Assembly (NCBI RefSeq): GCF_013167955.1
Contig: NZ_BLWF01000002.1
Location: 221,185-285,184, forward strand
Length of the DNA stretch: 64,000 nucleotides
Source of the DNA: Thermanaeromonas sp. C210
GTDB lineage: Bacteria > Bacillota > DSM-521 > Neomoorellales > Neomoorellaceae
Direction: 5' to 3'
A program made the translations under genes and the position numbers. Each line of letters starts with the position of its first letter. The stretch's first letter is position 1. A model generated the notes under the pieces. The model was not told where the DNA came from. It worked only from the letters and a program-made list of their open reading frames with translations, and searched no databases. Below are positions 1-3,373 of this stretch, in pieces.

Positions 1-279
1 CTGCCCCCCGTTTGCCGGATGAATAATTAAGCTTGTTTTAGCCCCTACCCCTTAGATGATTCGGTAGGGGTTCTTTTATGCTTACTACCGCAACCCAACA
101 AGGTGGGTAGTATTTGACGCTTACCTTTGATGCTTTTGGTGTAGCTTTCTTTTTACTGGCCCTGCTGGACTTCTCTACTTCGCCAATCTCCCGCTTCGAA
201 TTACCCGTTTCATCGCTGGCTTCTGCATTAACTCCAGAACTGGCTTCGTTGGCTTCTTCAGCTTTATCTACGTGAGCGT
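1..279. other. DNA downstream of the intron (3' exon side), no confident gene
   Basis: No convincing gene is seen here. On the minus strand an open frame runs from the intron boundary at about 277 to a TAA at 38-40, about 79 codons, rich in Ala, Glu, Ser and Lys (it contains SKKKATPKASK). It has no ATG, GTG or TTG start in frame, and a TAG inside intron domain VI closes it upstream. It could be the tail of a gene destroyed before or by the intron insertion, or a chance frame, because its last codons overlap a plus-strand hairpin. The base composition is more AT-rich than in the neighbouring genes. Confidence 0.4.
42..77 (+). terminator. Rho-independent terminator-like hairpin
   Basis: CCCCTACC (42-49) pairs with GGTAGGGG (63-70) around a 13-nt loop and is followed by TTCTTTT. 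The orientation suits a plus-strand transcript coming from left of the window. The gene it would serve is not visible. Confidence 0.45.
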
Positions 280-1096
280 ATCGGGTAGGAGGGGGCGACT
301 AACCCCCGTCACCCCCCCACACACACACCACCGTACGTACCGTTCGGTATACGGCTTCATAAGGCACTACGAAGTGCTAAGTACCGCTCAACTAAACTCG
401 TCAGCCCTTGGTCTCTCCAGAACTTAAGGCCAAGGGCTTTATTCACCTGGGGAGTATTGACCAACCGCCAGTACCCTTTCCGTGACCCGCTTATAAGTGC
501 TGCCCAGTCCTCAGGTATTCCTAACGCTACTAAGTTGCGTCTCCTGGTGCAGGGTTTTCTCCACTGCCGCAGCATACACATCCTGAGCCGTCGCCTTATC
601 CACTCATCTAGGGCTTCAAGGGTGCTGCGCGTATCTATTAGCCGAAAGTACCCTATCCATCTGTCTTCGCCCTCCCCTCGAACTAATAGAAAGCCTCCCT
701 GTCCTTATGTTCGGTCCTTCCCCCTCTTTGACGCCTAAAAGGGGGTACTATGACCTCTGCTGACTCCTGCCAGTTCATTCGCACCTTCCAGTGCGGGTTA
801 CCAGATTACCTGGCGCGCCTGGCAGGCCTCGCCGGGTAAGGACGTTGACTTTCCCTCCTTCCACCCACCGCATATACTCTCAGCAGTCTTCCGTAGCAAG
901 GACTTCGCTTTGTTTCGCAAGCTCATCCAACTGCTGCTAGCCTCCTATGCGGTTCCTGTTCGTCGGACCGGAGGTTTGCCGCCGGCTTCCTTCGGATTCC
1001 GCCTCACGACGGACACCCTTGCCTTAAGCTAACGTCTACTGCTACCTTCGTCGTTCAGGACTTACACCATATAGCCAACGCCCATGCCGGGCGCAC
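280..1096 (-). mobile_element. Group IIC (bacterial class C) intron, internally deleted
   Basis: Read on the minus strand, the element starts at 1096 with GTGCGCCCGGCATGGGCG and ends at 280 with CCTACCCGAT, the usual 5' and 3' intron ends. Domain I segments typical of the Oceanobacillus-type IIC ribozyme follow the 5' end, such as GGTGTAAGTCC and the GGTCATAGTACCCCC block. Domain V lies at about 326-359 (GCCGTATACCGAACGGTACG) and domain VI at about 280-318. The maturase gene normally in domain IV is cut to its last 100 or so codons. The 5' exon ends in the rnr terminator and its T-run, the target that class C introns prefer. It should be unable to move alone, but the ribozyme core looks intact and could be served in trans. 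Confidence 0.86.
357..665 (-). pseudogene. ltrA: Group II intron reverse transcriptase/maturase, C-terminal remnant
   Basis: The frame reads WIGYFRLIDTRSTLEALDEW, then WIRRRLRMCMLRQWRKP, and later GSRKGYWRLVNTPQVNKALG and LVERYLALRSAL before the stop at 357. This is the X (maturase) domain and C-terminus of a class C intron-encoded protein. Everything before it, including all reverse transcriptase blocks with the YADD catalytic motif, is missing. The frame joins almost directly to the ribosome-binding-site region of the intron at about 700, so a single internal deletion of about 1 kb is the simplest explanation. No in-frame ATG precedes the recognisable sequence apart from internal methionines. 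Confidence 0.85.
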
Positions 1097-1100
1097 GAAG

Positions 1101-1131
1101 AAAAACCCGGGCCAGGAAAATATGGCCCGGG
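1101..1131 (-). terminator. rnr terminator (also the intron target)
   Basis: On the minus strand CCCGGGCCA pairs with TGGCCCGGG (1123-1131 with 1106-1114) around an 8-9 nt loop and is followed by TTTTTCTTC. It lies about 130 nt after the rnr stop codon. The group II intron begins directly after the T-run. Confidence 0.9.
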
Positions 1132-1258
1132 TATATTTACATCTCGAATAGCATGCTTAGCCTACTTAGATACATATTAGAGCTTGTCCCATCAGTTCGC
1201 AGCCCAATAGGATTTTCCCTTAGCCCTAGTCCACTGGGGGTCCCCCTAGACCCTTGCC

Positions 1259-3373
1259 TTACACCAGTTCCAAATCCACCTGCCGCGCCTCTACACTGAC
1301 GCGGATCACCTGGACCTGAACCCTCTGGCCGATCCTGAAGGATTTGCGGGTATGGACTCCCACCAGGGCCATCTGGTCCTCCTGGTAATAGTAATAGTCA
1401 TCTGTCAGGGTAGAGACGTGGACCAGCCCTTCTACGGTATTCTCCAGCTCCACAAAGAAACCGTAAGGTACTACTCCGCTGATGGTGCCGGGATGAACTT
1501 CCCCTATCCGCTCCTTCATATACTCCACCATTTTCAGAAGAAGGGACTCCCTCTCCGCCTCTTCAGCGATCCTTTCCTGTTCCGACGCCTGGGCTGCCGC
1601 CCTGGCCACCAGCTCCTTCATCTTTTCCAGGCGCCGAGGATGGATCTTCCCCTTGGCCAGAACTTCCCGCAGGATCCGGTGGACCACCAGGTCCGGATAG
1701 CGGCGTATCGGCGAAGTAAAATGGCAGTAGTACTGGGAGGCCAGACCGAAATGGCCTAAAGCCCCTGGAGCGTAACGCGCCCGCATAAGGGACCGCAAAA
1801 TAACGGTATTGATAACCCTTTCCTCCGGCCGGCCCCGCATTTCCGTTACGATGCGCTGCAATACTTTAGGATGGATGCGGCCCTCTGCGTCCCTGCGCAC
1901 CCGGTACCCCAGCGGCCCCAAAAAGCGGTTCAATTCATCGAGCTTATCCGGAGCCGGCTCCTCATGCACCCGATAGATGAGGGGTATCTCCAGGAAGTGG
2001 AGGTGCCGGGCGACCACTTCGTTGGCCAGGACCATGAATTCCTCGATAATCCTTTCGGCTATACTGCGCTCCACCCGGATAATCTCTACGGGCCTGCCGT
2101 TCTCATCTAGGACGACCTTAGCCTCAGGGAAATCAAAGTCGATGGCCCCCCTCTTCATTCTTTTCTCGTATAAAATTAAGCAGAGGGCCTCCATAAGGCG
2201 AAAGTCTTCCACCAGGTCCCGGTAGCGGGCCATGAGGTCAGGATCCCGGTCCACTAAGATACGCCGGACGGCATCGTAAGTCATGCGCTCCCGGACGCGG
2301 ATGACGGAAGGGAAGATTTCGTAGTCGACGACCTTCCCCTGGGGAGAAACTTCCATGACCACAGACATGGCCAGGCGGTCGGCACCGGCATTCAAGCTGC
2401 AGATGCCGTTGGATAGGCGGGGGGGCAGCATGGGAATAACCCGGTCGACCATGTAGACGCTTGTCCCCCGGCGGAAGGCCTCCTTGTCCAGGGCCCCGCC
2501 TTCCTTCACATAATAACTCACGTCCGCTATGTGTACTCCCAAGAGGAAATTACCGTCGGGCATCCGCTCGATGGAAACCGCATCATCCAGGTCTTTAGCA
2601 TCAGCCCCATCGATGGTGACCAGCCGCCAATCCCGCAGGTCTCGCCGGCCTTCCAGGTCGGCGGCTGCAATTTCTTCCCTGATCTTTTTCGCCTCGCGTT
2701 TGACGGCCGGGGGGAAATCCGGGTCCAGGTTGTACTTCTTGATGATGGAGAGGACGTCCACCCCCGGCGCGCCTGCCGGGCCCAAAACTTCGATAATCCT
2801 TCCCTCGGGATTCCGGCGCGCTGCCGGCCAGCGCGTGATCTCCACCACCACCTTATCCCGGTGTCTGGCCCCCTTGCTCTCTTCCAGGGGAATAAAGATG
2901 TCCTGCTGCAGGTGGGGATCGTCCGGTACCACAAAGGCCACCCGCCGGTTACGCTCGTAGGTGCCTACTACCCGGGAATTGGCCCGTTTGAGGACGCGGA
3001 TGACTTCCCCCTCCCGCCGCCGGGTCCCCTGGTCGGGCAGCAGCCGAGCCAAGACCAGATCCTGGTGCATGGCCCCGTTTAGGTTGCCCGGGCTGATGTA
3101 TATGTCCTCTTGCTCCCTTTCCAGAGGCAGCAGGAAGGCAAATCCCCTGGGAGACACTTGCAGTTTGCCTGCCGCCAGGCCCATCTTCTCCGGTACCCCG
3201 TATTTATTCTTCCGGGTGCGCACTACCCTCCCTTCGGTTTCCAGTTCGTGCAACAGTTCCTGCAGGGCATGGTACTCTATCCCTAGTGTTTCCCCCAGTT
3301 CTTCTAGGGTCATAGGACGGTACGATTTATGCCGCATAAAATCCAGAACCTTTTCTGCTTCCACATGAACCAC
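1259..3373 (-). CDS. rnr: Ribonuclease R
   Basis: RNase R is a 3'-5' exoribonuclease that degrades structured RNA and takes part in trans-translation-linked decay. The 704 residues show an N-terminal winged helix (about 1-65), cold-shock-like RNA-binding domains (about 80-240), the RNB catalytic domain with the metal-binding motif DGADAKDLDDAV near residue 260, and a C-terminal S1 domain (about 620-704). It lacks the long basic tail of the 813-residue E. coli enzyme, as is usual in Bacillota. The GTG at 3371-3373 has a weak ribosome-binding site; a second in-frame GTG at 3362-3364 is possible. It is last in a run with the CofE-like and amidase genes (12-nt gap) and ends in a strong terminator. 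Confidence 0.96.
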   Translation of the reverse strand: MVHVEAEKVLDFMRHKSYRPMTLEELGETLGIEYHALQELLHELETEGRVVRTRKNKYGVPEKMGLAAGKLQVSPRGFAFLLPLEREQEDIYISPGNLNGAMHQDLVLARLLPDQGTRRREGEVIRVLKRANSRVVGTYERNRRVAFVVPDDPHLQQDIFIPLEESKGARHRDKVVVEITRWPAARRNPEGRIIEVLGPAGAPGVDVLSIIKKYNLDPDFPPAVKREAKKIREEIAAADLEGRRDLRDWRLVTIDGADAKDLDDAVSIERMPDGNFLLGVHIADVSYYVKEGGALDKEAFRRGTSVYMVDRVIPMLPPRLSNGICSLNAGADRLAMSVVMEVSPQGKVVDYEIFPSVIRVRERMTYDAVRRILVDRDPDLMARYRDLVEDFRLMEALCLILYEKRMKRGAIDFDFPEAKVVLDENGRPVEIIRVERSIAERIIEEFMVLANEVVARHLHFLEIPLIYRVHEEPAPDKLDELNRFLGPLGYRVRRDAEGRIHPKVLQRIVTEMRGRPEERVINTVILRSLMRARYAPGALGHFGLASQYYCHFTSPIRRYPDLVVHRILREVLAKGKIHPRRLEKMKELVARAAAQASEQERIAEEAERESLLLKMVEYMKERIGEVHPGTISGVVPYGFFVELENTVEGLVHVSTLTDDYYYYQEDQMALVGVHTRKSFRIGQRVQVQVIRVSVEARQVDLELV

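Follow-up and report, generated by a model that had tools for sequence, protein, structure and literature searches.

Group II introns of class C are described as having the habit of inserting just behind rho-independent terminators (PMC8919778). In vitro these introns splice hydrolytically in the absence of their protein (PMC7161350), so that a copy which has lost nothing but its maturase need not be dead. Bacterial group II introns that were inactivated and fragmented have also been described before (PMC4496777; PMC3522654). The window analysed here, a stretch of 64,000 nucleotides from Thermanaeromonas sp. C210 (genome G000), carries an 817-nt intron of the group IIC type at positions 280-1096 on the minus strand. 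This copy is new as a member of its family and ordinary as a kind, and very probably it is an inactivated and decayed group IIC intron relic with a deletion in its reverse transcriptase (RT) gene, not a working mini-ribozyme.

The two ends of the intron were found where the preliminary description had placed them, the 5' end (GTGCGCCCGGCATGGGCG) beginning at 1096 and the 3' end (CCTACCCGAT) finishing at 280, both on the minus strand. The 5' portion (661-1096, minus strand; intron nt 1-436) comprises the 5' splice-site sequence, domains I-III and the start of domain IV, and shows 91-93% identity to the copies of three other genomes (G017, G016 and G012). The domains I-III of a group II ribozyme are recognised in it by two Rfam models, RF02001 at 1013-841 (142.9 bits, E 1.3e-29) and RF01998 at 800-714 (64.1 bits, E 3.3e-9), both on the minus strand and far over the cut-off. 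Moreover, the non-standard pairs in these domains are in no clear excess when the window copy is compared with full-length relatives. That domains I-III are kept as well as in those relatives speaks against reading the copy as a relic.

The intrinsic terminator downstream of rnr and the 5' exon with its IBS1 occupy positions 1097-1132 (minus strand), as seen from a terminator scan and from the sequence. A 10-bp stem (ACCCGGGCCA..TGGCCCGGGT, 1132-1105) is followed by a T-run (TTTTTCTTC) abutting the intron 5' end, just as had been claimed, and this position directly behind an intrinsic terminator is the one expected of class C. Together with the Rfam matches to domains I-III it supports the group IIC identity. 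The last five bases of the 5' exon, the IBS1 TCTTC, form by eye four of five pairs with the EBS1 GAACA. The upstream gene rnr, encoding RNase R (704 aa; 1259-3373, minus strand), was assigned from its open reading frame and from relatives, and the intron lies about 160 nt downstream of it. An empty pre-insertion site behind rnr was not found in the relatives, whose rnr loci hold no homologue of the 5' exon; elsewhere short terminator matches only were obtained.

The 3' exon (125-279, minus strand) is a fragment of a coding sequence which had no match in a Pfam search and is 73% identical to a stretch of genome G005 (L184) that likewise lies beside a decayed intron. The idea that it is the C-terminal tail of RNase R, moved out of place, was rejected, as by eye it has no similarity to the tails of the relatives and matches the G005 gene fragment instead. 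It is cut short by the end of a multicopy insertion sequence (IS) at 1-124 (minus strand), which is repeated in the same genome and in relatives and which we take, by eye, to be IS66-like. An assembly gap (run of N) is situated directly outside the window, next to this IS end. The region beyond the 3' exon and the gap is rearranged, with a recombinase, the tmRNA and smpB opposite to rnr. In this region (L024, C2:216000-226000) smpB and the tmRNA are on the strand opposite rnr, and between them and rnr there are a serine recombinase and a nucleotidyltransferase-like pair (both by eye) and an IS.

The closest full-length copies belong to the same family and are present in G017 (two copies of 1885 nt, differing from each other at 2 positions) and in G016 (1884 nt), in addition to a 5' part in G012. 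The window copy is 91.5% identical to the G017 copies over nt 1-436 and 86% identical over the last 382 nt. The deletion, defined against both G017 copies and against G016, has its junction at 660-661 (minus strand), where 1075 nt of the 1885-nt parent (L142), nearly the whole reverse transcriptase, are missing with a microhomology of 0-1 nt. The parent encodes a class C intron protein of 468 aa, for which the GsI-IIC RT is the best match (PDB 6ar1, E 2.7e-192), and just 100 C-terminal codons of it are retained in the window copy. The internal RT deletion that had been proposed is thus borne out, both by the absence of the RT domains, none of which were found in the window copy, and by the 1075 nt missing in comparison with the parent.

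The protein remnant (357-659, minus strand) consists of these last 100 codons and the stop, and its residues 1-43 correspond to the end of GIIM, the maturase profile (PF08388, profile positions 35-76 of 80, E 7.6e-13). Although the cutting of the RT to its last 100 or so codons had been correctly described, their fusion to the leader of the intron is not a usable one. The ATG of the parent has changed to ATT, the leader frame reaches a stop shortly past the deletion junction and the remnant and the leader are in different frames, which deprives the remnant of any usable start in the frame of the leader. The changes in the remnant that are specific to the window copy comprise 18 synonymous and 11 non-synonymous ones (expected synonymous share 28%, p = 1.5e-4 versus no selection). 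As synonymous changes dominate, selection was still acting on the protein when most of the divergence arose; the deletion came after that and looks recent by comparison with the divergence of the copy.

Domain V (326-358, minus strand) is present, as had been claimed, but it is damaged. The alignment, the domain V survey and the fold show that CC is deleted in its 5' strand (GAA--GCCGTAT versus GAACCGCCGTAT) and that two basal C-G pairs are lost, while every other domain V in the loci collected, one from Ureibacillus among them, keeps this CC. The catalytic triad of IIC introns is CGC, and presumably the loss hits its first position, turning the first triad pair of the window copy into A opposite G. 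With the loss of CC the minimum free energy of the isolated domain V goes from -18.2 to -10.7 kcal/mol, and most of the hairpin still forms in the fold. In addition, the V-VI junction and domain VI (280-325, minus strand), which end in CCTACCCGAT, have a net insertion of 9 nt in the alignment with L142, L144 and L026, and among the relatives examined these extra nucleotides are exclusive to the window copy. It is because of the CC deletion and of this insertion that the match to RF00029, the domain V-VI model, falls short of the cut-off of 40 with a score of 30.6 bits; the same model gives 45-46 bits for the copies of G017 and G016, for the resident family and for two short derivatives. The low score is read as decay in a descendant of the IIC family, and the copy is filed as a IIC relic and not as a working intron. 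Judging by these changes, catalysis has probably been lost.

A functional ORF-less intron, with a ribozyme that has kept its splicing, either hydrolytic or helped by a IIC maturase in trans, is an unlikely explanation. It would agree with the persistence of domains I-III, of both ends and of most of domain V, with the protein-free hydrolysis by IIC ribozymes (PMC7161350) and with the fact that bacterial ORF-less introns are nearly always accompanied by related introns, which may lend them their protein in trans (PMC4424553). However, the intact catalytic domain V of such an intron is lacking here, CC and two basal pairs being lost at the triad-bearing base of domain V, and 9 nt are added in V-VI, unlike in all the relatives examined. 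Moreover, in RmInt1 a domain V triad mutant serves as the splicing-deficient control (PMC4496777).

The possible splicing with a maturase in trans, suggested in the preliminary description, is not supported. Against it stand these two lesions, the lost start codon and mismatched frames of the protein remnant, and the genome, whose assembly is 99.4% complete in 19 contigs and holds five RT genes. Four of them are in 1891-nt introns (L026, L027, L028 and L029) that are mutually identical and occupy four different sites. All four maturase genes carry the same insertion of 2 nt, by which the frame is broken in its N-terminal part, the open frames of the relatives being 483-507 aa long. That these were four intact resident maturases was rejected once the frameshift was seen in all four. 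The fifth RT gene is broken by an IS. An intact full-frame maturase gene was thus not found in the genome as assembled (four frameshifted and one IS-interrupted), and the related intact maturase that would accompany a functional ORF-less intron is absent from the assembly. In addition, the resident family has only about 72% identity to the window copy, and the genome search for related copies returned none more than 80% identical to it. The frameshifted copies have a 379-aa open frame from TTG, and its product might be a partly active protein; trans help for the window copy is made less likely by the broken resident maturases but is still conceivable. It is very improbable that the copy is a minimal class C intron whose domain V works with an A facing G in the first pair of the triad and with a lengthened V-VI linker, and which is helped by an N-terminally truncated maturase in trans.

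Other observations were made on the introns of this genome. It seems that L026-L029 spread in their frameshifted form, unless a single sequence was duplicated in the assembly. One class C intron copy (L025, C3:243400-247800, at 1423-1493) lies within a CRISPR array, where it immediately follows a hairpin formed in a spacer, and an IS interrupts its RT gene; the titles and abstracts of the literature on CRISPR arrays that contain group II introns held nothing specific. Two scraps (L030, C1:769421-769554 and C1:781878-781971) contain the intron 3' end only, and the first is closest to the subfamily of the window copy.

It is likewise very improbable that the short form is a mobile non-autonomous element, already deleted when it inserted here. 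The clean 5' insertion behind the terminator would fit such an element, as would the other deletion derivatives in the family, of 791 nt (L146, G004 C1:2124307-2125097) and 1077 nt (L147, G009 C1:365219-366295), but the junction resembles that of an ordinary deletion, and no second copy was found of the 817-nt form among 22 genomes of the order, nor of the 791-nt one in a search of eight genomes. The 791-nt and 1077-nt derivatives have an intact domain V-VI (45-46 bits), and with such a domain V they would be more promising than the window copy as ORF-less introns that still work. In two species two class C introns were seen head to tail with zero bases between them (L148, G004 C1:1898402-1902181; L152, G005 C1, near 1496070), and the second intron may have as its target the hairpin of domain VI in the first. 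Errors of assembly in a contig rich in repeats are the least probable explanation of the lesions. A gap in the assembly and a copy of an IS do adjoin the intron, but there are several lesions of more than one kind, and a collapse with another copy is unlikely as the genome has no other one above 80% identity.

For the decayed relic, the history would start with a full-length group IIC intron (about 1.9 kb) that retrotransposed behind the rnr terminator. Afterwards one illegitimate deletion would have taken out 1075 nt of the maturase/RT gene, and small indels would have harmed domain V and the V-VI region, an order of events that we infer. At present the copy would be an immobile relic, probably splicing-dead or strongly impaired, and its position past a terminator would make it cheap for the host to carry. 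It offers one clear case of the death of a class C intron, by deletion in the protein gene and small lesions in domain V. The remaining copies also have broken maturase genes, which makes this genome a fair test of intron spread without an intact maturase.

The introns of G017 (C1:2072962-2074846 and C1:323159-325043) and G016 (C139) have the same ends as the window copy and are also behind hairpins, with about 91-92% identity from domain I to the start of domain IV and 86% at the 3' end. In contrast, they are 1884-1885 nt long with an intact domain V (46 bits), and the G017 copies have the full 468-aa maturase ORF. Geobacillus GsI-IIC and Thermoanaerobacter Ta.it.I1 have the class C insertion rule in common with the window copy, and the parent protein is like the GsI-IIC RT, but these two introns encode an active RT/maturase, of which no more than the C-terminal fifth is left in the window copy. 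The bacterial ORF-less group II introns (PMC4424553) likewise have no RT and have related introns in the same genome; they keep a functional ribozyme, whereas the window copy has damaged domains V and VI and no intact maturase was found in its genome as assembled. Finally, the RmInt1 copies of Sinorhizobium meliloti that are under inactivation (PMC4496777) resemble the window copy in having changes in both ribozyme and protein, although they are of a different class (not IIC) and full length.
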